From the NCBI GenBank assembly GCA_004369045.1, contig ML213507.1, positions 613,274 to 655,290 on the forward strand: a DNA stretch of 42,017 bases. The letters run 5' to 3'. Positions 13,382-35,286 of this stretch are shown here, piece after piece. The first letter of the stretch is position 1, and every line of letters starts with the position of its first letter. The translations under genes were made by a program, and so were the position numbers. The notes under the pieces are model-generated. The model was not told the DNA's origin. It did not search any database and saw nothing but the letters and a program-made list of their open reading frames with translations. Origin of the DNA: Heliocybe sulcata (lineage: Eukaryota > Basidiomycota > Agaricomycetes > Gloeophyllales > Gloeophyllaceae).

Positions 13382-14403
13382 CTAGTACGCAACAGCCTGC
13401 AGAGCTCTCAGACGGTCCCAAGCCTCGATGGCTGGCATCCTCTCAGCGTGGTCCGGCCTCCAACAAGCACGAATGATCTGCCACAGATCATCCGATATGG
13501 ATCTCGACCGCGGGGGCCTCTCACCACTGATAACCATCGAATGTACCTTGAAAACCGTCTTGTTGGACCAAGGCCGCCTGCCGCTGAGAACCTGGGAAAG
13601 TATGATATCGTGCAGCATACGATATGTTCGGTAAAAGGACAGTACCTCGTAACACAGGAATGCAAAGGCATACATATCGGATGAGGACCTTGGTTCGAAT
13701 GTTTGGGATTCCCACAGCTCCGGAGCCCGCCACACCATTGCGCATTTGTCGCCGGATATCTGGGAGGTCGTAAAAGACCCGTAGAACTGACTGAGACCGA
13801 AGTCGGTTATTAGTGGTTGATGATTACTGTCAACCACAACATTTCCCTGCGGGATAGTGTTCAGTCCTGGAGCATCTCGAGTCGGAGGGTTGATGCGCAC
13901 TATATGGAGGTCACCGTGAACTAGTTGTGGCTCATGTGCATGGAGGTAGGAGAGCGCATCCGCTATGCTAACGATCTAGCGTTGTTCGTGTCAGGTATGA
14001 CTCCCATCACGGCAGACAGACTATTGCCTACTATGCGAACACGATCATTCGGCTGTGGCTTATAACTCTCCAAGTACGCTCTCAGGGTGCCATTGGCGGC
14101 CCACGGGCTCACCATGCAGAAGCGTAGATGACGAGATGTCCCCATCGGCCAGGAGTGCATTGCCAGTAAAGGCAGAATATGTCGATGCCGAAGCTGTCTC
14201 CAGAGAACCAATTCGCGAAGAAAAGCCTGACGGAATGATATTGAGTCAGACAGGAAGGATTTATAATCAAGGGATAGCGTACGCGCCTTCTTCCTGCGTT
14301 CAGGATCTTCGTCTTGACCCTGATGGACCGAATGGGTGACAACCTTCATAGCAACACTTTCGTTAAGCCACTCCGACTTGTAGACTTCCGCGGTAGGAGT
14401 CAT
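13382..14403 (-). CDS. TKL-like protein kinase A, 5'-truncated
   Basis: Four exons (14403-14032, 13975-13901, 13846-13646, 13591-13382) give 285 residues, essentially a bare kinase domain. Seen in order: ESVAMKVV (ATP-binding Lys), FLRELVLWRQLRHRHILPLL, a hinge-like MVSPWAANGTL, VHGDLH with GNVVV (catalytic loop with HRD changed to HGD, Asp kept), ITDFGLSQF (DFG), WRAPELWE (APE), DMYAFAFLCYEVLSG and the final IIRACWRPDHAERM. The glycine-rich loop expected before the Lys is not recognisable: paralogue B has ATGSFAQVFRGKW where A has MTPTAEVYKSEW. The N-terminal helical domain present in B is missing. Its ATG lies only 10 bases after the stop codon of K1 on the same strand, which suggests a deletion joined the two genes. 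It may be a pseudogene or a pseudokinase. Confidence 0.75.
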
Positions 14404-14413
14404 TGTGTGGAGG

Positions 14414-15722
14414 TCAGTAGTTGATGCGCCGTCTCCAATGAACGAGAAACCGATATAAGTTAAGTATAGGAGCCGCGTCTCGTTCGACAACCCTGGAACG
14501 CAGTTTCCAGCTGTTGAGAGACTTCTGGATGTTTTCAAAGCGAGTAACTACTTCGTCCATGTTCGGCCGCTTGATAGGATCATCCTGGACCATGTCGGAG
14601 ACGAGGGGACCCATGAACTCGAAACCATACTTCGCCTAAGCGTTCCACTTAAGGTAGGCTACAGTGGGGACGAAGGTGCGCTTACATTGATGAAGTCTTC
14701 TCGTATCATGTTTCCCAGATAGTACACGTCTGTTGGAAATGGGTCCATCGGCTCGTCGGAATCTCGAAATTCTGGGACGCTCTGGTCGCCGCCCAATATC
14801 TGTGGCTCGCGAGGGGCCTCATTGTCCGGACTGTAGCGTCGCGAAATGCCGAAGTCTATGAAATAGTACTTGACAGGTCGCTCCGTCCGGCTATAGTGCT
14901 TGGCAAAACCGCTTAAATCAGGCTTCATCTGAGCGCTCATTGGATGAAAACCATGGGGGTATAGATGTACACCATCCATCATAATATTGCGCCCATCACA
15001 ATCCCTTGCAATGCTCCGTGTGAGATACGTTAGGCCATACTGGTGAACAGCGTACCGATGAGCAACGTGGTGAACATGCATAAATTGTAGACCCTACAAG
15101 TGACGACAGTTCCAGTGACGTATCACAGGAAAGAGGAAGAACGAACCTCGAACACTTGCTTGAAGTATGCGACTGCTTCGCCGAAGGTATCAAAAATCGG
15201 TGAACGGTAAGCACGCAGAAACGGCATCACGAAGACGATCAAGTCCTCATCATCGGGCACTTGCAGAACCTCAAGAATCGGCACGCAGTGATTTTTTGGA
15301 TCGGAGGCGAGAGGCTCAGCAGAAAAAAAGAGACCGATATCTGCCTCGTGAGGATGGCGTGACTTCTTGATTTCCTTCAGTACAACCAGGGATCCGTCGG
15401 ACGTGCGAGTAGCATCGATGATACTCCCGTGCTAGAATGACCGTGGAAGGTTGTGAGCATTGATTGCAAAGAAGGACGTGCATACCCATATCGACACTCC
15501 ATCTTCGCAGTCATAGAAGCTTTTCTTCGAGTCCTTCCAAGACGGTCTCCATGACTGGTGATATCGAGGTCTCAGCATATAACCATGCTGTTCGAGCCAT
15601 TTCTGACGACCCCGCCAGGTGATTTCCGCTTTGCTTAGGGCTCCTGGGTCCGAAGGATGTAAAGGCTGGTCATATAGATCTTTGTCGACATCGTCGGCCT
15701 CAGTGTCTGCAGGGAGGGACAT
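14414..15722 (-). CDS. K-type protein kinase K1
   Basis: Five exons give about 370 residues. The N-terminal module is GYMLRPRYHQSWRPSW, followed by a kinase fold. VVLKEIKKS carries the ATP-site Lys. Then come EADIGLFFSAEPLASDPKNH, HVAHR joined by a 51-base intron to DCDGRNIMMD (HRD with Asn kept), VKYYFIDFGISRRY (DFG), GGDQSVPEF (in place of APE), DPFPTDVYYLGNMIRED and DPIKRPNMDEVVTRF. All key catalytic residues are present. I recall this arrangement as common in agaricomycete kinases annotated only as 'protein kinase domain'; substrates are unknown. Relative to K2 and K3 the C-terminus stops early (WRRRINY) and lacks the RRxPAxPxP tail, next to the start of kinase A. It is divergently arranged with kinase C, 373 bases between the two start codons. 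Confidence 0.85.
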
Positions 15723-16095
15723 CTGTCCCTAAACTGAGAGGAAGGCTGCCAGCGAGCTTCAACCAGTGAGGAACAATGACCTCTGTCACCGTGAACAAGT
15801 TCCGTTACCGAATAAACCTACATATTTCACAGTCCGTCATCCATCAGATCTGAGATCCGCATCGCGGCGTCCAACCTACTTTGACAACGATTAATGCTTG
15901 TACTGGGCTTGGACCTCTGGGAGCCATTGCACCGTGCGCTCTGGTGCCGCTTCATTTCCCAAGGACGAGGAAATAGGCTGTGCTCGTCATGGGAAGGTCT
16001 CTCTTGAATAGCCCAGGAGACCCATATAAATATCCTGATGCCCTCGCGAGATCAGTATTCGTCGTTTTGGTCTCATTGTCCACTCTCTCCCGAGG
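15723..16095. promoter_or_regulatory. shared divergent promoter region K1/C
   Basis: The 373 bases between the start codons of K1 (-) and C (+). An ATATAAA box at 16024-16030 lies 66 bases before the start of C. Equivalent gaps separate K2/D (369 bases) and K3/E (419 bases), so co-regulation of each pair is plausible but unproven. Confidence 0.5.
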
Positions 16096-18375
16096 ATGCC
16101 AGCTCCCAGAACAACTAGCTATCCCGCTGATATTGTGGCGACTTCGAAGAGGGCGAAGAAAGGCATACGCTGGCTTCTGAACGACGCTGATAACGCCTTA
16201 GAGGATGGATACAACCGAATATACAAAGAAGAAATCAGTCGGCGGATTGCTTCTCAACAGGAGCTACAAAACTTGAGAAGGATGTATGAAAGGCGCGTTC
16301 TAGTGCCATCACTACAGCACTTCACTTCATAGAGTGTTACAGGCTCGCGGCCGTGCGTGCGGATTTGGGCGAGAACCTGCACACTTGGCAAGGATCGTAT
16401 GGGAAGTTGATAAAGCTTCTGCGCCTCCGAGGGGATTGCATTGTCTTTTTGCAGGAAGCCCGTGTGAGCACGCTCGTCTCTTACCCGCTTTCATGATCTC
16501 CTGAACCGTACCATCCAAGAAATCGACCGACATTATCAAATCAATGTCAAATCCTACTTCCGGTCAGTCAAGTCCTCAAGCCACTAGTCCTTGTACGTGC
16601 CAGGTCAAAGGGAATTGTGGGGCATCATTCTGATCAACCCACGGTTCACAATAGATGCCTCGTCTACGTCTTCAACAGACAATTCGACTACTTATCCCTT
16701 CCGTTCAAGCAGTAGCACGACATCCTTCTCAGTCGACTCTTTAGACGAAGAACGCAGAGCAGCACCACAGGAAAATGAAGTTAATGACTTGCTTGAGTAC
16801 TTGAACTCTTATCCGGAAAAAAGCGGTTTCGCGCAAATCATACTGGGTACGTTTCATTGCCTGCGCATCTTCATGACAATCCTCCAGATCTAAGTCGTCC
16901 TTGATTCTCCGCAGGACTTGCTCTGTCAGTGAACAATGATTGGTCAGACTTCGCTTCTAAAGTAGCTTGTCTACTTGGGGATCGCGAGAAGGCGGTCGAA
17001 GACGTGAAGAATATGCCCCCTCATATTATAAAAGTGGCTCTCAACTTGCTGCAACGCGTGAGTCTCAATCACGTTGCCATATACCTTGCTAATTGAGGAA
17101 TGGTTATCAGGCTATCATTGGTTATGACCTGAACGAAGGCAGGGACGTGTCGGACTCATTTAGGGAAGATTGCGAGTTCGTCTTGAGAAGGGTTAGTCAG
17201 AAGTCGGGCGCTCTTCCCACTTGTCTCAATGTGGTTGTGACATTCGGCGATCGTGATGATGCCTACATCGATGTTGGTGCATCAGCAAGTGTATACAAGG
17301 CTACAATGGGCGACACAGTTGTGGCAGTGAAGATGTTTCACAAGGGTAAACATCAAGCCAGAGGTTTGGAGGTTGCGATGAAGGTGCGTCTGCCGCACGA
17401 TGGTCTGTGTCGCCATCTCAGTCCATAAACTAGAAATTCCGCCGAGAGGCTATTGTATGGAAGCAGCTGAACCACGAGAACATCCTCCCTCTCCTGGGTG
17501 TCTGCGGGAATGTTCCTGGTTTCGGCGTTGCGGGACTCGTTTCTCCCTACTGCGAACAAGGCAATCTGACTGACTATATCAGCGAGCATAAAGAGTGTGA
17601 TCGGCTCTACATGGTGAGTTATTCGACCATTCTGCGGCCTTCAATCACCCTAACTGCAGCCAAGCTGGAACGCATTGCGGGCGCCCTCAGTCATCTACAT
17701 AGTCACGATCCACCTATAGTGCACAGGGACCTGAAAGGCGTACGTCTTTCCCTCTCGGCTTACCGCCTTCCTGACCCTTGGCGGTATCAGAGAAACATCG
17801 TCATGTGGCAAGGCGAACCCCGCCTGACTGACTTCGGCATAACCACATTCAGTCAGTCATTCACTGTGACCTCGGAGAAGCCCGGCGACGGAACTGTGCA
17901 GTTCCAAGCACCGGAAACGCTGAAGCCGGAGGACCAGGACGATGCTCCTGATAAACCCAAGGATAGTTCTGGAAAGACAGAGGATGAGATGACTAGCGAC
18001 AGTGAGAGATTGGACGCTAGCGGGGACGATATACCCAGCGATACTCGGTTCGACGAGCAGCGGCGCCAGCTTACACCAGCCTGCGACATGTACAGTTTCG
18101 CATGTCTTTGCATCGAGGTACTGTTTTCATTCTTGCTCAAGCCTCAAGAAGCTGAACACACATAGATCTACACGCTGCGATTACCCTGGGGAGATCTTAA
18201 TAATATCACGGTCGCGACGCGAGTGTTGCAAAATCGCCGTCCACCTCGGCCAGCTGGAGACACTGTCCCCCCGGCTGTTTGGTCGCTCATAGAAGCATGT
18301 TGGCCGCAGGAACCGCAAGACAGACTGACGAGCGACGCTGTTCAGCATGCTCTGAGAGCTATGCTAGAGCCGTAG
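16096..18375 (+). CDS. coiled-coil TKL-like protein kinase C
   Basis: About ten exons, about 600 residues. Helical N-terminal part: RRIASQQELQNLRRM spliced to LAAVRADLGENLHTWQG and KLIKLLRLRGDCIVFLQEAR. Then a Ser/Thr-rich linker (near 16655-16760) and further helices (DWSDFASKVACLLGDREKAV; PPHIIKVALNLLQR). Kinase domain: loop DVGASASVYKA, VVAVKMF (Lys), FRREAIVWKQLNHENILPLLG, then IVHRDLKG spliced to RNIVMWQ (HRD), LTDFGITTF (DFG), QAPETL (APE), DMYSFACLCIE and LIEACWPQEPQDRL. All catalytic residues are present. Between APE and DMYSF there is an unusually long acidic insert of about 45 residues (17920-18080), much longer than in D. It pairs divergently with K1. The N-terminal helices resemble proteins E and F. 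A signalling role through N-terminal oligomerisation is inference. Confidence 0.85.
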
Positions 18376-19317
18376 GCTCGTACTACTTATTTGCTTTGCA
18401 AGGACTATAATCCATGTGTCTTATCTCAACCCCGACGTTATCTCACCTACATCTCTGGATGAAATGCTTCGATGTAGTACCAGAATACTGCCAGCGCATC
18501 TAGACAAGTGATAATGTACAGGCGACCTAAGTTCAAGCATCTGCGAGCTATGCAGAAGCAAGTCCGCGAGAGGTGCACCGTATTTCCCGGTAACGTCACT
18601 GATAGTGAGATCCTCCTTACTCAGAACGATGCCGCTCCAGCTGGCTCTTGCATACGATATTTGCGCCGAGAACGATAGCCACATCATGCTAGTCAAGATG
18701 TGTAAAATGGGACCGGACCAACAATCACAGCACGTCCCCAGCTACCAACCTGTCCGAAGCATTGTCGTCAGTTAATGAAGCTTTCCACACCCAATCTCAA
18801 GCTTCAAATCTTTATTTCCGAGAGTCGTGCAAGGTTGCCGCAATGAAGACAGTGCGAAGAGTACTTCTAGTCCCATGATCGTCTTCCGGGTATCCAGGCC
18901 GAGACTGACCATCAGAGCTGTTACCGACTATAATTATTGCATCGCTTCCAGCAGGAGGAGCGCACCAGGATCAATCAGGGTAACGATACATAAGGATTTA
19001 TAGGGACCTACATCTCCTGCACGGTCCCGCCATCCTGACAATATTGATATCCTGGGACCCATAAGATCAAACAACTTCCTTTTCCGGACGCATCATGATA
19101 TCGTGATTGATCCGGGATCTCACGGTCTCGGATCTTGGATAATAGATTCTTGACACCGCGGAAGCAGATGCGAGAGCCTCTCTGTCCTCAGCCAAGCGTT
19201 TCATTGCTCGGTCACCGATGCCCTGATTACAATCACACTTGATCAACGTTCAACACTGAAGTAAATAATGCTATACAATAGGAAGGAACTCTGCCGCCCA
19301 TTCCCCACCATATCTGA
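18376..19317. other. intergenic region between kinases C and B
   Basis: No supported gene. It contains copy 2 of the duplicated flank (19075-19140). A block at about 19008-19035 (GGACCTACATCTCCTGCACG and following) is loosely similar to 25912-25945 downstream of kinase D. These look like remnants of the segmental duplication. Confidence 0.45.
19075..19140. repeat. duplicated flank, copy 2 (copy 1 at 13040-13110)
   Basis: GATCCGGGATCTCACGGTCT followed by CGGATCTTGG, preceded by the shared ACAACTTCCT block. It lies just downstream of kinase B, as copy 1 lies downstream of kinase A. Confidence 0.65.
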
Positions 19318-20970
19318 CTAGATGTTGCCCAACCTTTTCAAGGCCACCCATGCCTCGGTGCTGCTCATTCTACGTTTACTCTCATGTACCCAACACGACT
19401 GGATAATAACCCAGGCGGGATCGCTTATACCTTCGGACGGTCTCTCAGGTCTTTCTCCAGCCTTAACCGATATCTCAATTCTCCTCGGTGTACGTCCTTG
19501 CCAAGGCGCACGCAGTGCGTAGATCTGCGAGAATCAGGACATATTCCGCATCTGGACATGGAAGGACGTACATGAAAACAAAGACACCCAAAGGAATACA
19601 TGTCGGAATAGGTCGTTGGCTCCCATCTGGGCTGCGTGAGATCCCAATGCTCCGGGGGTCGATAAGCGTCTGGACCTTTGTCTCCTGAAGTTCCATTGGT
19701 AGTGGAGGACCCGTGGAACCTGCTAAGACCAAAGTCGGTCACTAGTGGGTGGCCATATTTGTCGATCAAGATATTGCCCTGCGACGTGCCACTCAGATAT
19801 GTCCGGCAAATATTGGATGCTACGGGGAGCTCGTACGCACCGGGTGGATGTCTCCGTGAACCATTGGTGGGTCATGTGCATGCATGTACGAAAGCACATC
19901 CGCAACTGCAGCAAGCTGTAAAACCTTACAGTGAGTTATCGATAATCTTCCCGCGAAAGATGTGTTCCTTACAATGCTCGTTGGGTTGCCTCCCTGTTTC
20001 GTGACATAGTTGATAACATTTGCATTATGCGCCCAGGGAGACACCATAGCAAGTCTTAATTCACCCAGGTCATCGGTACCGCCGACATCGAATATTCCGA
20101 GCAGCGGAAGTACGTTCTTGTGCGAGAGCTGTCTCCAGAGGACTATTTCTCTAAGGCATCGCTGGGTAGATCGTTTATCAGCAGAAGACTCGGAGCTGAC
20201 TCGGAATGTCAGACATACCAATCGTTTCCTTTCTTGCTCGTCCGGATCATAAGCCGGATGGAACCTTTTCTGTGCTACTGTTCGGCCCAACCACTTGCCC
20301 CGAAAGACTTGCGCGAAGGAGCCTGTCGCCAAAGCCGACCCCTCGATGGTCGGCATCCGTCGACCTTGCAAGTAGAGGACAGACGGGACCAACTCCGCAT
20401 GAAAACTGAGCCTCCGTAGCGCGGCGTAGCAATGCATTCTGAACGGATGCAGGACTCGGGCAGGAGAATTAAGGTCTGAACCCTCTTCCCAGAGACGTGC
20501 TTCATCAATAGCCTGCCAATATACTTAACTGAGCATGCCACAATAAAGTGAAGGAGTCTCGCGTACGAATTGGAGCATATTCAGGAAATGAAGCACGATA
20601 TCCTTGGGAAGCGCCAGAATTACCACCGGCATTTTCTTCCGGTCCTCCAGGTTCATCATGTTCATTATATTCGAAAGTGTTGCCTGAAATCGAGCATGAT
20701 CCGATCCATGAAGGAAGGACAGTTCTGCGAAAGGGACCGCTTGTAAGAGGTCAAAGCTACTAGGAAGTGCAGCTCACCGGTGATTGCTTCGGCCAGAGCA
20801 CGGAGTCGGTTGTCGTTCAACGACTCCATGACAGCTTTAGCCCTCATTTCGACCTGTTCTACTATCAGAGTGGCATGGTGAATCATCTCCTGGAGGCCGC
20901 CTTCATCGTAACGACCAGTGCCATAGGCTTTCGAGATCGACCGGGCTGTCAGCGTCTGGAGAGTAGTCAT
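19318..20970 (-). CDS. TKL-like protein kinase B with N-terminal helical domain
   Basis: Seven exons (20970-20778, 20724-20567, 20512-20219, 20161-19973, 19915-19841, 19778-19572, 19524-19318) give 440 residues. The N-terminal half is helical: IVEQVEMRAKAVMESLNDNR, FQATLSNIMNMMNLEDRKKM and PKDIVLHFLNMLQFAIDEA. Then comes a linker ending VPSVLYLQGRRM before the kinase domain. Kinase marks: ATGSFAQVFRGKW (Gly loop), TVAQKRF (Lys), CLREIVLWRQLSHKNVLPLLG, VHGDIHP spliced to GNILID (HRD changed to HGD), VTDFGLSRF, YRPPEHWD, DMYSFGCLCFH and IIQSCWVHESKRRM. It is the intact counterpart of kinase A and shows what A has lost. HGD keeps the catalytic Asp, so activity remains possible. A TATATAA element (minus strand, 21013-21019) sits 43 bases before the ATG. 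Confidence 0.87.
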
Positions 20971-21012
20971 AGCAGGTGTGTGGTACCGGGACGCAGCAGG
21001 GTTGGAGGATAC

Positions 21013-21019
21013 TTATATA
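21013..21019 (-). promoter_or_regulatory. TATA-like box of kinase B
   Basis: Read on the minus strand as TATATAA, 43 bases upstream of the kinase B start at 20970. This distance is typical for a TATA box plus short leader. Confidence 0.45.
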
Positions 21020-21546
21020 CCACATCGTTCGAATCCTAACTTACGTCCCGGGCATACAGGCGGTACAAAGGATACCATCTCGGAGTCTCTTGAACATGTT
21101 CTTTGTGACAATTGGGAGCTAGCCTTCGCGGTCGCGAGGGCGCATGCAATTGTACTGTCAATCGTGCAAGGCAATCCCGTACACGCTATATCTGCCAGAG
21201 TCGCTGAGAATGGAACACAAGAACCGGGCAGGACTCGACGCTGTGCAGCTATCAACGCGATGGATCACTCCTGAGCGCTAAACCACGATTCTTTCCCACC
21301 CAGGTACAGCCGAGCCGAAGGGGTCTTCGGCAACACTTGATTAAGAGCGTGAGCGACGAACACTAGTTTGCGTATCATCCCGATATGTAAGCGGTACGTG
21401 ATAGAGAGCAAGGTAAGGGGAGACAATAGACCAGAGCAAACAAATGGAGATAAGGTTGGAGTGAGCGTGACGACAGATGCACTAGTGAAGGGTAGTACCA
21501 CAGGGTGCGAAATAACAGAAAATCCAAGGTACTCGCGGAACGCTGC
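21020..21546. other. intergenic region between kinase B and K2
   Basis: About 530 bases lying downstream of K2 and upstream of B, both on the minus strand. No gene is seen. The equivalent region is missing between K1 and A. Confidence 0.5.
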
Positions 21547-22879
21547 TCACGGAAGGGGCAAGGCGGGGACCCGCCGAGCCACATACGCGATACGCCGCTT
21601 CCAATGTATTATTGTCCGGTATAATTCTAGAAGTTCGACCTCGTCACGTTCCGCAATGCGAGAACGCAGCTTCCAGCTACTAAGAGACTTGCGGATAGCC
21701 TCGAAGCGAGTCACTACTTCGTCCATTGTAGGTCGGCTCGAAGGGTCGTTTTGAACCATATCGGAAACGAGAGGCTCAATGAACTCGAAGCCATATCTCG
21801 TCTGCGATACATCCTAAGCACTCAGAACGTGAGAGTAGCGAGTAATACGTACTTGTATGAAGTCCTCCCTTATCATATTTCCGAGGTAGTACACGTCTGT
21901 CGGGAACGGATCCACTGGCTCATCCGATTCTTCAAATTCCGGCACAGTCGTATCAGCGCCCAGTATTTGCGGTTCAAGGACAGGAAGATCCTCAGGTTTG
22001 TAACGCCGTGATATCCCGAAATCCACAAAGTAATAACGGACAGGGTGCCATGTGCGCGTAGAATGTTTGCTCGATCCGCTTATGTCCGGTTTTTGTAGGG
22101 TAACGACAGGATGAAAACCTTCAGGGAATAAATGGTTTGCATCCATCATAATATTGCGAGAATAGCAATCCCTAGCATGGGACCGTCAGTTAGCGCGAGG
22201 GGATATAATTACTGTGCAGACACAACGAACCGATGAGCGACATGATGGGCGTGCATGAATTGTAGTCCCTGACGGAATCGGATCGTGAACAGTCTCGCTA
22301 CACATTAGGAGATTATTACCTCGAATATTTGCTTAAAGAAAGACACGACCTCTCCAAAGGTATCGAAACGGGGGCAATCGTAGGCATGTAAATATGGCAT
22401 CACAAGCACCGTTACATCGCTATCGTCGGGCACCTCCAGAACTTCAAGTATTCGGACACAGTGGTTCCGCGGATCAGAGGAGAGAGGCTCTGACGAAAAG
22501 AACAGACCAATATCCGCTTCATATGGATGAATGTGCTTTTTGACTTGCTTCAACGCCACTATAGACCCATCTGAAGTACGTCTTGCGTCAACCACGACGC
22601 CTCCGCCCTGATGCTCGGTCAGCAAGATCAAGACTTTTCTGAATGAGAAGAGATACACACCACGGCAGCGATACCATCCTCGGCTCGATAGGACTGTATA
22701 CCCGTGGCTTTCCAGGACGGGCGCCATGTATCATGGTAGCGAGGCCTCAGCACGTAGCCACGCTGTTCGAGCCACTTGTGATGGCGCCGCCAAAACAGTT
22801 CTGAAGGCATTAGTGCGCCATGCTCAGGAGCACGGATGGGCAGGTCGTCGTCCTCTTCAGCTGGCGCAGGACTGGACAT
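21547..22879 (-). CDS. K-type protein kinase K2
   Basis: Five exons, about 365 residues. The order matches K1: KWLEQRGYVLRPRYHDTWRP, IVALKQVKKH (Lys), EADIGLFFSSEPLSSDPRNH, HVAHR spliced to DCYSRNIMMD (HRD), VRYYFVDFGISRRY (DFG), GADTTVPEF, DPFPTDVYYLGNMIRED, RPTMDEVVTRF, and the complete tail RRIAYVARRVPALPLP. I chose the start MSSPAPAEEDDD at 22879 because it aligns with K1 and K3; an in-frame ATG at 23014 would add 45 residues and shorten the divergent promoter to 234 bases. Catalytic residues are intact. It pairs divergently with kinase D. Function is unknown beyond presumed Ser/Thr phosphorylation. Confidence 0.85.
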
Positions 22880-23248
22880 TCTCGAAGGAAACCCACTTCT
22901 CCCGTGACCGAGCGTTGAAAGGCAGAGAGATCCACGCCTGCCCGTGCATGGAGGCGAGCCTTGTCGTTGACTCTCGGTTCGAATGCTGATGGACAGCCCG
23001 ATTCCCACAGCCATGTGTCCGGGGTCCTCGTGAATCTCCGGGAATCTCAGATCCTTACCGATTACCTGTGTAACTGGCGTGGGATCGCATTCTTTGTTTT
23101 CCGTACTGTCTGCGATACCGGCGATGTATATGCATACTGGACATGAAGTCCGTAACCAGTCATCTGGTTCCTTTCGCGCACGGTATCATTTCGGCAGTCA
23201 GCCGGTCCATATATACCTGTCCGCCTGTGTTTTCGCGGCGGCATAATC
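22880..23248. promoter_or_regulatory. shared divergent promoter region K2/D
   Basis: 369 bases between the start codons of K2 (-) and D (+). An ATATATA element at 23209-23215 is 34 bases before the start of D. The spacing mirrors the K1/C pair. Confidence 0.5.
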
Positions 23249-25541
23249 ATGTCTGTCTACTCAGCTCAGAGCTCGGTCGATCCCCTTAGCAAGGTTTCTT
23301 ACTCGTCATACGAGCCAGCCTCGCAAGTGTTCTTGGATTCTCATATAGGCGTCTCGGGCCCACATATCAGGCAATTCTTGAAATGGCAAGATCGCAATAT
23401 TAGGAAAGCTTATTTAGAATGGCGGCATTGGGAGGGGAGACTCTCTACGGACCAGAGGGCACTGCTAGAGCAGCTATATGGACAGTAAGTGACTAATACG
23501 ATCGAGTGTACATAGTTAATTCTTCTTCAGGTTGGTCAACTTGCGAGAGGGGCTGAGGCAGCAGTCTACTACACTCAGACATTCATGGGGACCTGACGTC
23601 CTACAAACTACAAAATTATACCGTATAACGAGTAGCACGTTCCAAACCCATGTCAAGGTGCGTTTGATTCTTTGTATCCCATCCATCTTACTTTGCTTAT
23701 CCGCTGGTCTAGCAAACCACCGAGCAAGCAAGGAAGAGGGCTAAAGCGGAAGCCCGAGCAGCACAGGAAAGAAGCAGCAGGAGCTCTGCTGGCGAGTCCA
23801 CCACTGATATTACATACCATACGGTACTGAAGGATCTCCTATAGCAGAATCCTCGCAACTGACTTCACCTATCGTATCTCCGAGCGATACGAGTTCCGAC
23901 AGCGAGACAAGCTGCTTTCAGTGGTCTTCATTGGAGATCTCAAGTCCAAGTCCGGAGTCCGTCCGTTCCCGCTTACCCACGAGCGACATTATAGCTCAAA
24001 CACTGGAAGAAATAAAGGACAGGACACCCGAGCTCCTCGAACTGGCTATCGGTATCGTCGGTGAGTCTAATCGTATTGTCATTCTTTCCTGTGTCTAAAC
24101 TGGATATCATAGGGACAGTATATCTCGTAGACAAGGATAGAGAGCAATTTACATGCGGTGTACAGGCGCTGCTCGACCTTCAGTTCAAACGGGATGAGAT
24201 CCAAGACGATCGAAGAGTTCCCCTGGCTGAGGCACTCGTAGCCTTGCCGGACCTGCTCATTGTGATGGCCCTGGACATGTTCGAACTGGTGCATCGTTTG
24301 CAGTCGTAACGCCGTGCGAGTTACTTATGCTGCTTGTCTCTAGGCTGCCGGTATCGCCCGTGATTCCAATGGCACAGGCACGGGCGCCGCGGAAGATGAA
24401 GACAATTTCGCCTCTCAATGCGAGAAGGTCATACGAGAAGTGTGCCATAAGGCGCGGTCCTGGGAGATGCTTCCACCGGCTCTTTTCAAGGACACGGACG
24501 AGATTCAGGTCGATCTCACCGAACGCTGTGACTCCGGGGGTTACGGGACTGTCTGGATGGCAAAGATAGAGGGCCGTGCTGTTGCCATCAAAATCCTGAA
24601 CACCGTGCTCTCCGATGATCACGAGCACGTATTGCCAGATCTCAAGGTACGCCTTTTTCTATAGGTGCATCTGTGGCGAGATCTGACCTGTCGCGGTAGA
24701 GGTTCAGTCGGGAAGTCATCATATGGCGACAGCTTCATCATCGGAATATTCTGCCGCTCCTTGGGTTATGCCGAGCTTGCCCTCCGCCTGCGCAGCCTGG
24801 CCCGGGCATGATTTCTCCCTGGTGCAAAAACGGTAACCTGAACAGCTATCTGCGGAAGCAGTTAAGGAGGAATCGGAGCGTGGACTACATTCATTTGGTG
24901 AGCACTGTCGCGTGTTGTTGTATACAGAGGTCTTGACTCCATTCAAGCTTGAACGTATTGCGGATGCTTTGTCTTACATGCATCGCCATGATGCAGTTCA
25001 TAAGGATTTGAAGCTGGTAGGTGCTTCATGACTAGTGGGTAGTATCGGTCTAACTTCGATAATTACAGCTGAACATTGTGGTCGACGACAACTTGGAGCC
25101 CTGCTTGACGGATTTCGGTATCACCACTTTCGCGTCCAGTCGCACTGTCAGCCGGGAGCCCGGGAGCAGCGGCTCTTGTCGTTGGATGGCGCCAGAGGTA
25201 TTCAGGCGCCCCGGTGAAACAGACGCAGACGTACGGAACAGGGTAACCGCTGCGTGCGATATGTACGGCTTCGCGTGCGTGTGCTTAGAGGTCCGTCCGT
25301 CGCATCGTTGTGAGACTTGCGCTCATTGCGTCTGCAGATGTATACTCTGAAGTACCCGTGGCACGACATACGCTCCGAGGAGGAGGTAGAAATCAATGTG
25401 CTCGCAGGAGAACGACCGCCACGTCCAGACGGCATTCCCGACGAGGTGTGGTCCATCATGGAAAGCTGTTGGGTGCAAGATCGGCAAGACAGGATGAAGA
25501 GTGAGGACGCACACAAGGCTTTTGCTGCCATGTTGGCGTGA
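23249..25541 (+). CDS. coiled-coil TKL-like protein kinase D
   Basis: About eleven exons, about 600 residues. N-terminal helices: IRQFLKWQDRNIRKAYLEW, then LLEQLYGQLVNLREGLRQQS across the first splice. A basic Ala/Arg/Gln stretch (EQARKRAKAEARAAQERSSR) and a Ser-rich linker follow, then further helices (AQTLEEIKDRTPELLELAIG). Kinase domain: ERCDSGGYGTVWMAK (Gly loop), RAVAIKIL (Lys), FSREVIIWRQLHHRNILPLLG, AVHKDLKL spliced to LNIVVDD (HRD changed to HKD, Asp kept), LTDFGITTF (DFG), WMAPEVF (APE), DMYGFACVCLE and SIMESCWVQDRQDRM. One intron (about 23790-23841) needs a poor GTCCAC donor to keep the frame, so that junction is uncertain. It is the paralogue of C, duplicated with its divergent K partner. 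Confidence 0.83.
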
Positions 25542-27026: not shown

Positions 27027-27376
27027 CCTTTTCAGCGTAAGATCGTGGTCAAGAGTGAGCTGGGTGGAGAAGGTGATCGTGTGCCTACGTCATCGATCGT
27101 TATCAGGGATCTTCGCTTCGCGGACGTTGAAAAGAATCGGGAAGGGATTCGGCGAGCAGAGGACGAAGACAGTCAGTGAATGCCAGCGTCGAGTATTGTT
27201 TTCAGAAGATTTGAGGAATTATGGTATCTTCGAGTAGAAATATGAATTTTGGATTAGGACATATCACAGCTAAGAGCAGAACTATGGATACAGTAAACAT
27301 ACAGTTAACATTGGGTCGGTGCAGCATGGACCATCGTCAACCTCGACACCCAGGCAGCGAAAGAGTTCTCAGCATT
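27027..27376. other. spacer between prefoldin 4 and acylphosphatase
   Basis: About 350 bases. It holds the prefoldin 3' flank and the acylphosphatase promoter. No separate gene is seen. Confidence 0.5.
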
Positions 27377-27985
27377 CTACTCATCGAGATTGATAGCCTT
27401 GCCAAATTTCGCGTAGAGAACAACCTTCAGCTCTTTCATCGTCGCCTCGCATTCCTCCGTGGATGAGGCGAGGGCAGAAATCTGGGACACTATTGATTCT
27501 TGATCGCTCTCTAGTCGCTTCATGGCGCTGGAATGCGAGAGCTTAAAGAACGATTCTCCAATTTTATATCTGGCGGGCGGATGAGACGGACAGAGAGACC
27601 GGAAAGACGTAGACGTAAACGCACAAAACTGGTTCATCTTCGTCCGCTAGCTCCAGCTCTGTTGATAAATCATCCAGGGCCTCCTTCTCTTCCTGATACA
27701 CATGTCACGACAGCCTCCTAGATGGCGATCCGGTTTGCGCACCTTCAGATTCCCCAGTTTTTCCTCGATAGCTCTCAGACGTGTATTGAGTTTCGAGAAG
27801 TTGTTAATCCTCTGCTGATCCTCTAGTAATACTTTGAGTGTCGGGAGTTCTGTCGAACCACGGCGCGGCAAGAACTAACCCCAGGTAACCTCAACGTCGT
27901 CGGTTTCTTCTTCTTGCGCTAGCTACAGAAGCTGATCATTGGGTGGCTGATTGACGAAAACAAACTGTATCCTCACCATTCGCAT
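27377..27985 (-). CDS. GIM3: prefoldin subunit 4
   Basis: Five exons (27985-27977, 27922-27880, 27822-27743, 27692-27625, 27569-27377) give 130 residues, the normal size of this beta-type prefoldin subunit. Prefoldin is the cytosolic six-subunit chaperone that hands nascent actin and tubulin to the CCT chaperonin. Diagnostic runs: EVTWEDQQRINNFSKLNTRL, RAIEEKLGNLK, EKEALDDLSTELELADED, YKIGESFFKLSHSSAMKRLE and the C-terminus MKELKVVLYAKFGKAINLDE. These form two helices around a beta hairpin. The first exon is only nine bases (Met-Arg-Met), a start I recall from fungal homologues. It is divergently arranged with the S1P lyase gene, 445 bases apart. Confidence 0.95.
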
Positions 27986-28430
27986 CTTGTGGACGATATC
28001 AAGTCAATAAGGCCAGAGACGTGTATGGCTGCTACTAGAGTGTGGACGGCGAATGATGGCCTCAACGGAAGTCGGCAACACCCCGATGCCGGACCCGACA
28101 GCGGCCAAAACACGGAGGCTTGAGGCTACCCTCACTGATGCTAAGACTGTCGAGTGCGGACGAACTGCGCGCCGAGTTCTGCGGTATCGCTGCCCGTCTT
28201 CCACGTCCTTGACACTGTCACTTTCTCATAGGCCGTATCAGGCTACCTCAGGACTTCTGCCTCTCTCAGAACTGGAACGGTCAAGCCCCCAGGCCCAATA
28301 CAAAACACACAACTTATAGGCTACTAAATCTCGTCTTTGCATAGAACTAGTTTGTCCACTCGAACTATACACCGGCGTACACCTCCCCAAGTCGTCTGCG
28401 TATAGGTCAGACTGAACAAACTCTGGCAGG

Positions 28431-30811
28431 ATGCCTTCCTCGATGCAGAAAGCCTCCAGTGCCGTTTCTCCTACACGTCTGGCCACCCTCGACAATGTCA
28501 AGACACTCTTGCTCCTCTACGTCGTCTGGACCAACTCACTCAAAGTTTACCGGCACCTCTGTGCCCGCGGTATAACCTCGACCCTCACAGACGTCTACAA
28601 ATGGGTCGCGCAGGTGTGCGGCTGTCCAGTCTTTCACCCATGCCTCGTGCCGTGCTTAGTATATGCCATGTAGCAAGTCGTTTTCCTCGCCCTTCGTATG
28701 CCGCAAATGAAGAAGAAGGTCGAGACGGAGATGGCAAAGGCGAAGATCGACATTGAGAGCAAGTTGGTGCCGCAGGGCCCGAACGTTATCCGGCATCTGT
28801 CCTTACCATCCCAGGGCAAGACGTCCGACTGGATCGTACAAGAAATGGAAAGAATGGACGCGGAGATGGGGAATGAGGTCAATTGGAGGAACGGCAAATT
28901 GAGCGGTGCTGTCTACCGTGAGTGCAACCCAGCTGAAATTCTCGGACTGAGCCCCTGAGCTTCCTTCTGCTAGACGGCGGACCCGACATGGAGCAGATCA
29001 TCGTCGCGGCGTTCCAGCGGTATTGCGTTTCCAACCCCCTGCACCCAGACGTGTTCCCAGCAGTCCGCAAAATGGAAGCAGAAATCGTGGCCATGTGTCT
29101 CAGGATGTACAGCAACCCCGACGGTGCTGGCACAACCACCTCGGGTGGAACGGAAAGTATCGTCATGGCGGTTAAAACGCACCGAGAGTGGGCAAAGGAG
29201 GTGAAGGGCATCACTGAGCCTGAAATGTCAGTTACATCCTCCGCCGAATACACGTGTTGGTATTCTGACGTGGTTCCACAGGATCATACCCGCGTCTGCG
29301 CATGCGGCCTTTGACAAGGCGGCGAACTACTTTAAGATCAAGCTGCACTCCATCCCGGTGGACCCTGCCACCCGCCAGGTCGACCTGAAGCGGGTGAAGC
29401 GCGCAATGTAAGTCACCGCTGCCACTTTTCGAACGCGTCTTTGCTCACGTGACCTCAAAGTAACGCCAACACCATTATGGTAACTATTCCCCCCTCGCCT
29501 CCCTTTCACTCCCACTCACGCAGTACATTTTTCATAGCTCGTAGGATCCGCTATAAACTTCCCAGACGGCAACATCGATCCGATCCCCGAGCTCGGCGAG
29601 CTCGCCAAGAAGCACGATATCGGGCTGCACGTCGACTGCTGTCTTGGATCGTTCATCGTCCCCTTCCTCGAGGAAGCTGGCTACGGCGAGTTCCCTGATT
29701 TCGAAGGAAAAGGGAACAAGAAGAAGGTGCCGCTATTTGACTTTCGGGTTCCGGGTGTGACAAGTATTAGCTGCGATACACATAAGGTCCGTTTTGTCCC
29801 GTGTGGCACGAGCTAGGGTTAGGGTTGGCTGACTTGGGTTGTGGCTTGGGCAGTACGGGTTCGCTCCTAAGGTCGGTGGTTTGTTCAAAGTGCATGAGGA
29901 TTGGTGATTGATACTTTCTCCATATGTTTGCAGGGCTCGTCTGTAGTGATGTATCGTAATGCGGAACTTCGCAAGCATCAGTATTATCTAAACCCAGAAT
30001 GGATGGGTATGATTCGGTTCTGTTCCAATCGTACAAGCATGTATTGAACGCGTGTTTAGGTGGTGTATATGCGAGTCCCGGTTTAGCAGGGTCTCGGTAA
30101 GTGCTTTCCCCATTCTGATAGTGGCTAAACACTGAAATACCCTCGCCCTGCGTGGGTTCTTTCTTCCTCAGACCGGGGTCCCTTATTGCTGGGGCATGGG
30201 CTGCTATGCAATACATGGGCAGAGAGTAAGATAGACGTCCTTTGACCAAACACACTGCTGACGCTATCTTCGTGCAGCGGATATCTGGCGTCTGCCAAGT
30301 CCATCGTCGCCTGTGCCCGTAAAATCGGGCAAGCAATCACGGATTCCATCCCTGAGCTTTACGTCCTCGGGAACCCGCCCGCATCCGTTATTGCATTCGC
30401 ATCGCGGTCGCCGGAGGTGAATGTCCTGGAGGTGGGCGACATGATGAGTAGAAAGGGCTGGCATTTGAACGGGCTCACGAACCCTGCCGCTGTCCACATT
30501 GCTTGCACGGTAAGCTGCCGTAAGCTGTCTGAGGCTGAGTAGTAGATCTGAAATTTGGTGTGCAGCGACTGACGGTGCCGATCGTGGATACATTTATTGC
30601 GGATCTGAAAGATGCTGTTCAGGAGGCGAAGTTGCGCCCCTCGGGGCAAGGGTCGATGGTTGCGGTTTACGGCAAGTCTTTATCCAGAATGTCACTGGCC
30701 GCGTAGAGCTCATGCTTTGCATTTCTAGGGCTTGGAAACTCAAGTGCAGTGGGTCCCAAAATGGTCAATCGGCTGGCCACTGCGTTTCTGGACGCGTTGT
30801 ACAAAGCATAG
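28431..30811 (+). CDS. DPL1: sphingosine-1-phosphate lyase
   Basis: Thirteen exons (28431-28613, 28674-28917, 28974-29226, 29282-29407, 29461-29479, 29538-29786, 29854-29871, 29934-30006, 30060-30096, 30172-30225, 30278-30509, 30566-30671, 30729-30811) give 558 residues, the usual length. The enzyme is a PLP-dependent lyase of the ER membrane that cleaves phosphorylated long-chain bases to ethanolamine phosphate and a fatty aldehyde, the exit step of sphingolipid breakdown. Seen: an N-terminal hydrophobic helix (TLLLLYVVW), [64 protein letters not shown], and SCDTHKYGFAPKGSS, whose Lys (about residue 358, codon 29784-29786) forms the PLP aldimine. The last intron (30672-30728) appears to start with GC rather than GT. 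An ATG at 28443 is an alternative start. Confidence 0.95.
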
Positions 30812-32710
30812 AGTCACCGTGTGGGCTTACTCAATCTTCGGTGCTGTACTGGTTTCTCCTGTTGTATCTTATTGATGAATTATCGATGATCTTGTTGTTT
30901 GCTATCTTGCTAACTACGATGGGACGGCGGAATCTTATCGATCGGGAACTAGGGCGGACAGCGACTGTTCTCATGATATGAGTTCTACTCTCGGTGTACG
31001 AATTCCCGCGGACAAGCGACAGCGCCTTCGACCTTCTACTCTTCCTCTCGATCGCTTGCTAGACAATAAAACGGAGGTTGCGACTTCTAAAAATCGGGTG
31101 TTCAAGCATGTGCGCGGACACAAGCGAGGCAAAAAGGTGATCCCGACGACGCTCGGACGGGTGAGGCCGTGCGATTTATTGTCTTCGAGGGGCTTGTGAA
31201 CACTGACCAGATGGTTTGTTCGATGCAAAAAACGACCCCAGACTGTGGACCTGTTTACCCTACCGGGGAGACGACTTCGCCCTCGCGCGGAGCTCCTCGG
31301 ATCCATGGAAGTTCGTCCGCCGAGTTGTGATGCGCTCAGCCTAGATGGCGCTGTTATCATTGTTGACAAAGCTGCCACTGAGAACCGTCCGGATCCCAGC
31401 AGATAGGCGGAAGACCCGGAGCACCGTGATGCTGGGAATACACTGTTTCTTCGATTTCATCTGTTCTTCGATTTCATCTGTGGACCCACAGACGGCCTGT
31501 GCGTTCACATCAAGCTGCGCCATCCAGCGTACTGCCTGAGCATGTTCCCAACGTCCCGTAAATCTGATCCGTGGCATACCTCCTAATGTAAGGGCAGATT
31601 GTCCAGAGGCTGGTACAGGTCGCGTTCACCACTGTTTGGAACATCTGATAATCATCTTCGTTGATGTGGACATGTGCATGCGGGACGGCCTAGCCTGTCT
31701 GGGACCGAGCCATGCCATTCATCGAAGCTGCCGGAAGGCTCCAGGTCGCTGTCCGAACCATCCTAAACTAGCATTGATAAAGGTAACAGGTCTGTCTAGC
31801 TGGTCGCCATCGAGGGATCAGTCTCACGTATCGATTGACCTGGATGTTCCTCTATGATGAACTGGCCTATAGGAGCCGGCGAGTGCTTACACTGTTGGCG
31901 AACCTTGAAGCTTTATCCAGAAGTACTCCAGAGTTCACAAGAAAGATGATTCAGCTCCCTCGCTCGACATAGGTCTCTGAGTTTATACAAACATACCCGA
32001 GTGCCGAAGGAATTTCTGATTTCAAGCATGCTAACACGTGACTCGAGATCTGAGTTCCAATCGCGAGTCGCGTCGCACTCCGCGATGCCGGAAGATGCCA
32101 GCATCCTTTGTACCTGCTTGCCCCTACTGGCACAAATGTTCTCAAGTGTGCTTCCATGAAACACTGTCTGGCTAGAACGCAACATTCAGTTTCGCTGACG
32201 TGCATCGACAGCGGTCATGCATGTTCTATCGGGATCGCATGAAGGCACGCATCCGCTAAAGGGCAAATGAGTGCCGACGACGGTTGCTTGGCCGAGCAGG
32301 TACAAGTCGCGCTCCACTGCTCGCTAAGGATGGTCTCCACCAAGCCCTATGCCTAACACGTCGCACACCAGACTCCGGTACAGTTCGTGCAATGAAGATA
32401 GACGTTGTTGCCTTGTTCTTTCTATGGCAGAGACACGCGACCTTGCACCTCCGCACCTCCGCCAGGAAATATCAAAGAAGGCGCGCGTACGTCAAACGTC
32501 AAAATAACTCGAGTCTCAAGGAACGTGATCATAGTGGCATTGTTTTCTAGCAGTAACGGCAGATAGTTGAAACTTGAAGGAGCGGACGGCTGGACGACAG
32601 CAAGCGATGAAGTAACATGATAATGCAAGACGTGAAGATGTCTAGAAGATGAAGCAGGGACGATCCATAAATCCAGGTACCGAATAACCAAGCATGAAGA
32701 GAACAAGGGG
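30812..32710. other. region with coding-like fragments but no supported gene
   Basis: Minus-strand frames (31913-32185 with ENICASRGKQVQRMLASSG and DLESRVSMLE; 31341-31577 with DEIEEQMKSKKQCIPS) look coding-like and could be exons of an unknown or decayed gene, but I could not join them. Similar short motifs VRIPADKRQ (30996) and VRIPADRRK (31387) occur on the plus strand. Confidence 0.35.
31447..31480. repeat. 17-bp tandem duplication
   Basis: TTCTTCGATTTCATCTG occurs twice head to tail (31447-31463 and 31464-31480). In the minus-strand frame it alternates Glu/Lys-rich codons (DEIEEQMKSKK). A small replication-slippage duplication. Confidence 0.8.
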
Positions 32711-34043
32711 CTACTTCGGCATAGGCACAGCAGGTGTCCGCCGGATTATGTACTCGATGCGCCGAAACCAATGGCTCAAGCTGCGGAGAAACCCCTGGAT
32801 CCTGCCTTCGTTGCGAGGGACGACTCTGGAACGCAGCTTGGTCGTGGTGAGAGTCTTGCGGATCTCAGCGAACCTTTTGGAGACCTCCTCCATGGTCGGC
32901 CGTTTGTCGGGCTCTTCCTGGACCATGTCGTTGACGAGGGGCTCCAGGAATTCGAAGCCTTTATTCAGCTGCAAGCAAGGACGGTATTAGAGGAAAAGTA
33001 TCATGCTATTCGAACATCTTACCTCTATGAGCCGCTTTCGAATGACGTTGCCAAGATAGTACACATCGGTCGGGAATGGATTGCACTTCTTCGTCGGATT
33101 GCGCTCCAAAGCAGCAGGCTGATGCTCTGGCGCCGACCTATCACCGCCAGGCACGATGTCTTCCATGGGGGGCATGTCCTCCGCCTTGTAGCGGCGGGTT
33201 AATCCAAAGTCGATAAGATAGTACTTGACGGGTCGCTGGGTTCGGGTATAATGTTTGGCATCGCCCTTGAAATCTCTTGTGCGCCTGGTTCGGACAGGAT
33301 GGAATGATTCCGGATACAAAGCAGACGGGTCCATCATAATATTGCGCCATGTGCAGTCCCTGACCTCATGTCAGCTCGCGTTGTAGTTAGTCCGCGTAAC
33401 CGCTCGCACCTATGCGCTATTAGTTGTTTATGCATGAAATACAAGCCCTACGAACGCTCTGCAGTTGGTACTCGCAAGGACTTCCAAAGGAAATGGAATT
33501 ACCTCGATACATTGGTCGATAAAAGAGATTACTTCGCCGAAGGTGTCGAACGGAGGGTCGTTCCAGATTCGTAGGAATGGCATCACGAGGATTTGCAACT
33601 TTTTATCGTCTGGCGCGTCCAGCACTTGGTAAATGGGCACACAATGGTTCTCCGGATCATCGCGGAATTGCTCAGAGGATAATAAGACCCCAAAGTCGCT
33701 TTCTTGCGATGCATACACCTTTGAGATGCGCTTGAGAGCGACAATGACACCATCGGAAATACGAACAGCGTCCGTTATTTGACCATACTGATATGGACTT
33801 TAGTATCGGAGCCACGAGCAAATATAAGTCACCAACCTGAGGGCTCTGACCGTCTTCGCAGTCCAAGCTGGACTTCCCATTGCTAGTCCACGATGGTCTC
33901 CAGTCATGCGCGTAGCGAGGTCGTAACATGTAACCTTGTGTTTTGAGCCATTGCTGATGATTCCTCCACCAGAGCTCGAACGGACTAAGCTCCTCTTGAA
34001 CGTCGGGAGGGACACTGTGAGATGGTTCAGTTTCTTCAGGCAT
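32711..34043 (-). CDS. K-type protein kinase K3
   Basis: Five exons, about 365 residues, third copy of the K family. Seen: QQWLKTQGYMLRPRYAHDWR, IVALKRISK (Lys), ESDFGVLLSSEQFRDDPENH, GLYFMHKQLIAHR spliced to DCTWRNIMMD (HRD), VKYYLIDFGLTRRY (DFG), GGDRSAPEH, NPFPTDVYYLGNVI, KRPTMEEVSKRF and the tail RRIEYIIRRTPAVPMPK. The frame breaks visible around the catalytic loop are resolved by two introns (acceptors near 33441 and before GGACTGCAC at 33362), so the gene appears intact. Between VPGGDRS and NPFPTD it has about ten extra residues compared with K1 and K2. The start at 34043 (MPEETEPSHS) aligns with K1 and K2. Its divergent partner is the kinase-less coiled-coil gene E. Confidence 0.83.
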
Positions 34044-34462
34044 GACCGACCAGCATAGCAATAGCGGAACCCGGGGCACTTAGGTTCGAGTCGCGCAAGC
34101 TCGAGACCCCGGTCCTGTGCGCGACGCGAACCATCAGATGGACAAAGACGTAAGCGTGCCAAACAAGACCAAATATGGACCCATATCAGTCCATGTCTCA
34201 GTCGCCCTGCCACTCCCTATAGAGGCTTGGGCCTTCCTTCTCAGATTAGAACAGATCGTACAGCTTCCCCTGGACAGTCTGATTTGCTCCCGCTTTTGTC
34301 TTTTGTACCCAAAATGGTTATCAGTCATCAGCTTGCGCGGCCACGGTACTCGCACGTCAGGTATATATTCTGTCACCGGTCAAGGCCTGAAATGCAACCC
34401 CCGCAGCTGGCTGTTCACACCTCCTTACTTGACGCAGTCTCTCGCTCTAGGACGTCTCAAAT
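34044..34462. promoter_or_regulatory. shared divergent promoter region K3/E
   Basis: 419 bases between the start codons of K3 (-) and E (+). A TATATAT element at 34362-34368 is about 95 bases before the start of E. Confidence 0.45.
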
Positions 34463-35286
34463 ATGCCCACATCACCTGCAGGCCCGCTGGAGGATGCTCG
34501 TCAGCATCTGTATCAGGGAATGCTCATCCTGTACGAAACCAAAGAATCCATCCACAACGTAGATCCAGAGATCCTTGCTGATTTAACGCGACAATATAAC
34601 AAGTAAGGGGCTAGTGAGCCGTTCTACAATCTCACTAACTCAAGAATTCTCGGACAGGTTAATGCAGACGCACTTGACTCTTTCAGAACGCGAATCAAAG
34701 AAGAAAACCCGGTTGTTTGCGATATTCCAAACAAAGGGGCGCGACGTCCTGACACACTGGGAGCAGTGCCAAGAATTCAATATTCACGTTCAGGCAAGAC
34801 ACCTTGCTCCGATTCATGAGGCATCTACTCATATACTACCAGAGCGCCTCGGCATCCGTGAAAGCAAAGGAAACGGAGAGCTTGACATCTTCTTGCGTCC
34901 CTTTGTCAATAGCGCAAGAGGACTTTGACTCCCAAGACCCTTTTGGCTATATCGGAGTACCAAGTCAGCCGCTAAATGACAGCGAGTCCCTGCGCTTCAG
35001 TCTTCCGAATCATTCAAGTGCTACGTTCTCCTCGGTGGACTCAACTGTCCCGCTTACACAAAGACCCCCGGACGGTAATGACTCCGAAGGAAGCGACGAC
35101 GGCTCAGGAGACCGCGTCACGTTCATGCCATTTACCGGTACACGAACATCTGGAGAAGATGTTGTGTACTGTAGAGTCCACAGTACGTTATGTTTTCATT
35201 TGACGTTCTCCCTCTGACTGTCTCATCTTACAGATCCGGCCACTATGAGCTACGATTCTCTCTCCGGCGTGCTGCAGGATAGTTAA
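34463..35286 (+). CDS. coiled-coil protein E, kinase-less partner of K3
   Basis: Four exons (34463-34602, 34658-34787, 34843-35182, 35234-35286) give 220 residues. The helical N-terminus (EDARQHLYQGMLILYETKES, then ILADLTRQYNK spliced to LMQTHLTLSERESKKK) matches protein F in pattern. It is followed by a Ser/Asp-rich linker (SLPNHSSATFSSVDSTVPLT; GNDSEGSDDGSGDR) like those that separate the helices and kinase domains of C and D. It then stops (TAA 35284-35286) with no kinase domain, and none is recognisable downstream. The donor of the second intron is ambiguous (GTTCAG at 34788 or GCAAGA at 34794; both keep the frame). It sits where C and D sit relative to their K partners, so it may be a truncated copy or an adaptor form. 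Function unknown. Confidence 0.65.

Follow-up and report, generated by a model that had tools for sequence, protein, structure and literature searches.

In Podospora anserina, the het-B locus (Bh/Bp) is described as two adjacent genes whose highly divergent versions are kept together (PMC10890737), and the HD1-HD2 gene pairs of Agaricomycetes are divergently transcribed, exist in some fungi as several paralogous copies and usually reside at highly diverse loci (PMC8305134, PMC8970355). Here we describe a 42,017-nucleotide stretch of the Heliocybe sulcata genome (positions 613274-655290 of contig C5, GenBank ML213507.1, in an assembly of 31.6 Mb and 51 contigs; hereafter the window), where members of one kinase family, the K kinases, each lie opposite a divergently transcribed partner gene. 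As with het-B, the unit that differs between the K cassettes is a gene pair rather than a single gene. This contrasts with the composition of het-B, which comprises HET-lectin and PII-like proteins and alleles with tested incompatibility (PMC10890737), whereas the K cassettes join a kinase to another kind of partner and are seen as paralogues in one genome. The divergent pair and the several paralogous copies are shared with HD1-HD2. Assignment to an HD mating-type locus was rejected, since no homeodomain or Mating_N match is found in K1, K3, C, D, E and G (E ≤10) or in K2, K4, K5 and F (E ≤1), and the locus is not beside a mip1-type peptidase, M3-peptidase matches being present only on contigs C1 and C7. 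Among the papers listed by literature searches, no title or abstract opening describes such a kinase-partner pair.

The five intact pairs fall into two groups, group 1 with K1-C and K2-D and group 2 with K3-E, K4-F and K5-G, where the first three pairs lie within the window. Gene models were built manually, guided by splice signals and by comparison among paralogues, and are predicted from sequence alone; six-frame open reading frame lists and a self-trained gene finder were discarded as a source of models, as they skipped short or weak exons. All comparisons beyond the window were made within the genome of this same fungus. The Pfam cut-offs are 31.7 bits for PF00069, 23.1 bits for PF07714 and 24.1 bits for PF17667.

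14414..15722, minus strand: K1 kinase; exons 15722-15486, 15431-15147, 15093-15056, 15004-14686 and 14635-14414; HRD and DFG kept; PF00069 1.1e-9, 38.6 bits
15723..16095: K1-C divergent intergenic region, 373 bases
16096..18375, plus strand: C, with an N-terminal region, a Ser/Thr-rich linker and a TKL-type kinase; 10 exons, intron phases 2,0,1,1,0,0,0,0,0; PF07714 4.5e-31, 108.5 bits
21547..22879, minus strand: K2 kinase; exons 22879-22661, 22607-22320, 22268-22231, 22171-21853 and 21801-21547; PF00069 48.2 bits
22880..23248: K2-D divergent intergenic region, 369 bases
23249..25541, plus strand: D, layout and intron phases as in C; third exon and its introns uncertain; PF07714 1.2e-40, 139.9 bits
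32711..34043, minus strand: K3 kinase; exons 34043-33837, 33787-33503, 33447-33410, 33359-33023 and 32968-32711; PF00069 4.4e-9, 36.6 bits
34044..34462: K3-E divergent intergenic region, 419 bases
34463..35286, plus strand: E, 222 residues with a Ser-rich linker; exons 34463-34602, 34658-34793, 34843-35182 and 35234-35286; intron phases 2,0,1
C5:693070-691737, opposite F: K4 kinase; PF00069 35.8 bits
From C5:693480, plus strand: F, E-like, opposite K4
C5:732337-731001, opposite G: K5 kinase; PF00069 38.6 bits
From C5:732722, plus strand: G, E-like, opposite K5

The sequence-only reading of the window had placed K1, K2 and K3 on the minus strand opposite C, D and E on the plus strand, and both this order and the three gaps are recovered with the spliced models, the ATG-to-ATG distances being exactly 373, 369 and 419 bases. 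Searches of the genome with K1 (21 matches at E ≤0.001) and with K4 (21 at E ≤10) converge on the same six K genes, five of which form a divergently transcribed pair with a partner, the remaining gaps being 409 bases for K4-F and 384 for K5-G. A search with G yields nine matches at E ≤10, all within E, F and G, and E-like genes were found at three places in the genome, every one beside a K gene. Thus, the neighbour preference that had been predicted from the window also applies, within this genome, to K4 and K5, which likewise face E-like genes. The first 330 residues of C retrieve only C (6 matches, E ≤0.01), and the first 369 residues of D retrieve D (6 matches) together with three weak places (E 0.005 to 0.36); distant partners could escape such searches, as a search with G retrieves F at no better than 1e-4 and misses C and D. 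The sixth gene, K6 (C23:180239-181489), carries an in-frame TAA and lacks the DFG segment and is thus broken; its upstream 1.5 kb contains no partner-like frame by eye, and a translated search with C to G finds nothing there (E ≤10). The pairing, which had been proposed as fixed, therefore stands for five of the six K genes and for all three E-like partners, whereas K6, alone although broken, is a counter-example to a strict rule.

The K proteins form a coherent family. K1, K2 and K3 share five exons, intron phases 0,0,2,0 and short introns, and encode proteins of 366-374 residues with pairwise amino-acid identities of 50-65%, far above chance (65% for K1 with K2). Each of the five intact K proteins scores above the PF00069 cut-off, and from K1 to K5 the catalytic Lys, HRD, Asn and DFG are conserved without exception, whereas the Gly-rich loop, as judged by eye, is non-canonical.

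The group 2 cassettes lie within a segment of about 10 kb that is present in three copies and spans from the last exons of a lyase-like gene to past the end of a PIG-U gene.

28431-30706, plus strand: lyase-like gene, which we take to be sphingosine-1-phosphate-lyase-like; PF00282 5.1e-15
30370..40002: segment in three copies, at C5 643643-653275, at 689389-699409 (aligned to window position 39411) and at 703590-705579 with 730688-738306
30400..32706: left flank; K3 and K4 copies 91.7% identical (2073/2261 aligned), with the change point at 32706
35624..40002: right flank; identity of 93-94% with the K5 copy and of 77-96% in matched pieces of the K4 copy
About 38092-38625, minus strand: PIG-U gene end; PF06728 5.8e-30

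Comparison of the K3 and K4 copies reveals a best single change point at 32706, which is 5 bases from the K3 stop codon (32711). On the outer side, the left flank has a Jukes-Cantor distance of 0.088, whereas that of the K introns is 1.06 (88/203 identical, 43%; Fisher p 3e-59). Indeed, intron identity is at chance, with 35 of 100 shuffles aligning as well, and the synonymous differences between K3 and K4 are saturated (pS, the proportion of synonymous differences, 0.745). The diverged stretch covers both genes as well as the intergenic region, the partner retaining 35-52% identity per 100 bases; on the right side, identity recovers patchily, ranging over 41-88% per 100 bases between 35700 and 36300, and the matched pieces further into the right flank are at 77, 81, 89 and 96%. 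This abrupt drop in identity from flank to cassette, located at the K3 stop codon, is the strongest new fact of the analysis. Since neutral sites are saturated beside a flank that has diverged by only 8%, a single duplication followed by ordinary divergence cannot explain the arrangement. Either old cassettes were set into young copies of the segment, for instance through unequal exchange between strains that carried different cassettes, or the flanks became homogenised at a later stage, and in both scenarios the unit that stays distinct is the kinase together with its partner.

For K3 and K5, the flank is 92.7% and the introns are 72.5% identical, and the right flank is at 75% just after E and at 93-94% from 35624 onwards. 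Both genes have diverged as a unit within conserved flanks in K3-E relative to K4-F and in part in K3-E relative to K5-G, whereas K1-C and K2-D do not show this. The broader proposal that each K kinase works with its partner is borne out in part, in that the pairing extends beyond the window and that the pair behaves as one inherited unit in the K3, K4 and K5 copies. In addition, the last 124 codons of K3 and K5 (32711-33064) are 98% identical with a synonymous divergence (dS) of 0.14, forming a conversion-like tract between genes 85 kb apart.

Copies 2 and 3 of the segment share their starting point, which falls within the last exons of the lyase-like gene; this gene is complete only in copy 1. 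Because of this shared breakpoint and the sole complete gene, copy 1 is probably the source. An origin of the flank as a transposon or dispersed repeat was rejected, as flank DNA is found only at the three segment copies, and a conserved gene is unlikely, as the alignment of the left flanks of K3 and K4 contains 16 gaps, 11 of which have lengths not divisible by three. The left flank of copy 3 is split by a 25.1-kb insertion (C5:705580-730687). Young repeats of 97-99% identity, probably mobile DNA, lie on C5 between K3-E and K4-F (L016:7720-7930 with L017:7454-7664 and L017:9306-9968 with L018:271-933).

The two members of the pair evolve at different rates. The ratio of nonsynonymous to synonymous divergence (dN/dS) is 0.11 for K3/K5 compared with 0.39 for the partners E/G, and 0.09 for K4/K5 compared with 0.29 for F/G, the latter comparisons having a dS near 2.5. 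K is thus under strong purifying selection and the partner is the faster-changing gene, while the order of relatedness is identical for K and partner. Whole-gene dS values are similar (0.66 for K3/K5 and 0.73 for E/G), but this agreement is weak evidence for joint duplication, because the K3/K5 value averages the 0.14 tract with 0.92-1.63 elsewhere; individual pieces of E/G range from 0.49 to 1.16.

Taken together, we suggest, with a probability of roughly 0.4, that K and its divergent partner constitute a two-gene cassette that is inherited together and kept diverse by recognising something variable. Such a cassette would share one intergenic region of 370-420 bases, and K3-E, K4-F and K5-G would represent old, diverged cassettes within young, near-identical flanks that have been exchanged or kept distinct as units. 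Most likely, K would phosphorylate, or be regulated by, its own linked partner, with the short, probably helical, N-terminal region and the Ser/Thr-rich linker of the partner providing the docking or substrate region; a kinase with a dedicated substrate or regulator would be the simplest model. Diversity would be maintained because the pair recognises a variable target, which could be a virus or bacterium, a fungus that is non-self or what the other allele encodes. By analogy with het-B and the HD mating pairs, the idiomorph-like pattern suggests that diversity itself may be useful. Physical interaction of K with its partner, kinase activity, co-expression and a recognition role are what we infer from these comparisons. 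A more specific version appears unlikely, namely that the locus is a basidiomycete non-self recognition locus with ancient distinct kinase-partner versions that are exchanged as whole cassettes, a kinase counterpart of HD1-HD2 or het-B, where a mismatch between a kinase and a partner from different cassettes or nuclei would either set off a response such as cell death or leave it unrestrained.

Several observations weigh against a diversified recognition cassette. The right boundary of the diverged stretch between K3-E and K4-F is patchy, and the left boundary between K3 and K5 lies inside K3, at 33064, away from the gene edge. Group 1 has no young flank copies, so that the idiomorph-like pattern is evident only in group 2. 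The intergenic regions of K1-C and K2-D are 44% identical compared with 42% when shuffled, no better than chance, and the same holds for K1-C and K3-E. The N-termini of C and D are unlike each other, with no alignment above chance over the first ~100 residues (147/500 shuffles equal), and neither matches E, F or G above chance, the best case being C with G (21/500 shuffles equal). The N-terminus of E/G is also not the fastest-changing part, as its exons have dN/dS values of 0.14-0.27 compared with 0.57-0.59 for the linker and C-terminus. Moreover, the recognition step is drawn from a single genome, and if gene conversion had homogenised the flanks, an identical contrast would arise with no recognition involved.

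The latter point is central to a passive account, in which an old tandem family was copied as a block, the short gap kept K and its neighbour together, and the flanks were later homogenised by gene conversion that stopped at cassettes that had become too different, such that the two genes need not work jointly. We consider this a serious contender, if somewhat short of even odds. The blocks [A/B]-K-[C/D] and K-[E/F/G] (A and B being TKL-type kinase genes of group 1, described below) are segmental duplicates, the K3/K5 tract (dS 0.14 relative to 0.92-1.63) resembles gene conversion, and the partner family is small with a loosely constrained linker, all of which passive linkage would accommodate. 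It accounts less readily for the saturation of neutral sites between K3 and K4, which indicates that the pair has long remained together in all five intact copies, for the broken state of the sole partnerless K gene, or for the observation that the diverged K3/K4 unit sets in where the K gene ends and not at some random position.

Alternatively, the two genes may share only a bidirectional promoter, as co-regulated neighbours in one developmental programme that make no direct contact. The gaps of 369-419 bases in all five intact pairs would fit such an arrangement, as would the stretches that the K3-E intergenic region shares with its group 2 counterparts: positions 34143-34184 match K4-F (86% over 43 bases, E 5e-6) and positions 34122-34211 match K5-G (83% over 90). 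Overall, the K3-E and K4-F intergenic regions are 52% identical (60 shuffles: mean 42%, maximum 51%). The short shared region with its common stretches suggests that the paired genes may be expressed jointly. However, at E ≤0.01 the intergenic regions of group 1 share no stretch with those of group 2, and K4-F and K5-G have only 17 bases in common, so that a promoter-only explanation is in our view improbable. By eye, an inverted repeat, ATGGAC...GTCCAT, is present within the conserved 34143-34211 in both K3-E and K5-G.

Kinase-domain-containing spore killers are known in Podospora, and a selfish killer or toxin-antidote pair, in which one gene harms cells or spores without the cassette and the other protects them, would favour local duplication and rapid change, consistent with the multicopy, locally duplicated and fast-changing nature of the pairs; nevertheless, K is under strong purifying selection and its catalytic residues are intact, and no Pfam killer domain is found in K1-K5 or C-G, which renders this option very unlikely. 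Least probable is an artefact of assembly, with alleles of one dikaryon locus put in tandem by the assembler: flank identities of 77-96% are within the range of alleles in outcrossing mushrooms, in which case the dissimilar core would represent a genuine allelic idiomorph, yet two nuclei cannot supply three copies, one breakpoint is common to copies 2 and 3 in the lyase-like gene that is whole only in copy 1, the 25.1-kb insertion splits copy 3, and the two M3-peptidase genes are found at one place each.

The partners themselves are of two kinds. C and D have a TKL-type kinase domain after a long N-terminal region and are homologous across their later part; in C, the PF00069 score is close behind or level with that of PF07714. 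Keeping the D model in frame takes a weak donor (GTCCAC) together with an atypical acceptor at 23728. E, F and G constitute one family, with identities of 32-62% (more than 18 standard deviations over shuffles) and a common C-terminal PFTG motif, and Pfam detects no kinase or pseudokinase domain in them. Intron phases 2,0,1 are common to C, D, E and G (2,0 in F, where the third intron lies outside the model), and exon 2 is of similar length among the partners, at 121-136 bases. Position, intron phases and exon-2 lengths thus suggest a common origin of C/D and E/F/G, short of proof by sequence. A shared N-terminal domain was considered and set aside, as a profile reaches E 0.027 for C and gives no match for D; of the single coiled-coil partner envisaged by the sequence-only reading, the shared position and intron phase stand, but not an N-terminal sequence match among C, D and E-G. 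The helical tendency of the N-termini is deduced from composition alone (mean Chou-Fasman 1.01-1.10, 0-2 prolines per 83-88 residues), and the following 80 residues contain 28-36% Ser/Thr. Derivation of E from a kinase gene that has lost its kinase is not our first choice, as F and G share the layout of E, and a translated search with C and D downstream of E (within the window), F and G finds no kinase piece (E ≤1); loss in the ancestor of E/F/G is still conceivable. The intron of E at 34794-34842 is of the GC-AG type, where the close paralogue G has GT-AG. Among solved structures, none useful was found for the E/F/G profile (best E 0.044) or for K3 (best E 0.016), and an NCBIfam search with K3 and G gave nothing near cut-off (K3 best 21.4 compared with 460 bits).

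Beyond the K genes of group 1 lie two further kinase genes.

13382..14403, minus strand: A, TKL-type kinase, apparently 5'-truncated; PF07714 8.3e-37, 127.3 bits, match from model position 13
19318..20970, minus strand: B, TKL-type kinase with an HGD variant, closest to A; partial exon model; PF07714 27.8 bits

The presence of TKL-like kinases on the minus strand beyond K, as noted from the letters of the window, is confirmed, as A follows K1 and B follows K2, and the A and B regions give a translated match at 4.96e-37. However, an A/B-type kinase accompanies only two of the five K-partner pairs, and when C and D serve as translated queries against the sequence 3' of K3, K4 and K5 (2.7, 6.4 and 1.5 kb), nothing is retrieved; this kinase therefore does not look like part of the module. 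A starts 10 bases past the stop codon of K1, and the Pfam kinase model matches it only from position 13, so that it looks 5'-truncated; the junction (14377-14434) looks like that of a truncated gene joined to the end of K1 via an old rearrangement. An 84-base non-coding direct repeat (81%) lies past the ends of A and B (13027-13110 and 19055-19138) and marks the old duplication of blocks 1 and 2. K1-C and K2-D are old duplicates without young flank copies. At its right end (40194-42017), the window consists of dispersed, transposon-like DNA with 72-100% matches on contigs C2, C4, C5, C13, C14, C17, C22, C25, C39 and C46.

With respect to known kinase families, A, B, C and D match PF07714 and, by this family match and leaving FslK membership aside, can be likened to the FslK kinases, which are expanded in Agaricomycetes, and to the TKL kinases expanded in Laccaria; pairing of K with a partner is unmentioned in the available portions of these reports (PMC3937382, PMC2838846). 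TKL-type kinase matches in the H. sulcata genome number at least 145 at E ≤0.001, counted exon by exon, which together with its intron-rich genes would be in keeping with an agaricomycete. Compared by description only, K may resemble AgaK1 of Coprinopsis cinerea, a PF00069-type mushroom kinase. In a table row carrying the AgaK1 label, CC1G_09799 is given under Ec+bs with values of 5.9 and 7.1, which we take for induction by two bacteria (PMC4704728). FunK1 (PF17667) is also a fungal kinase family expanded in some fungi, but K falls below its cut-off, and identity with FunK1 was rejected, as K4 and K5 score 10.2 and 11.4 bits compared with 24.1 and K1-K3 are unlisted. The action of a kinase on a helical partner, as described for RIPK3-MLKL and fungal HeLo/HELL, offers a possible working model (PMC12881547); this differs from the cassettes in that E, F and G are without a kinase or pseudokinase domain. 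At the level of Pfam sequence models, no HeLo, HELL or MLKL match is found in C-G.

Saturated divergence inside a flank that is 92% identical makes the locus a concrete, mappable candidate for recognition. Even if it should prove otherwise, the arrangement provides a rare handle on the expanded kinase families of mushrooms, with a candidate partner next to each intact K.

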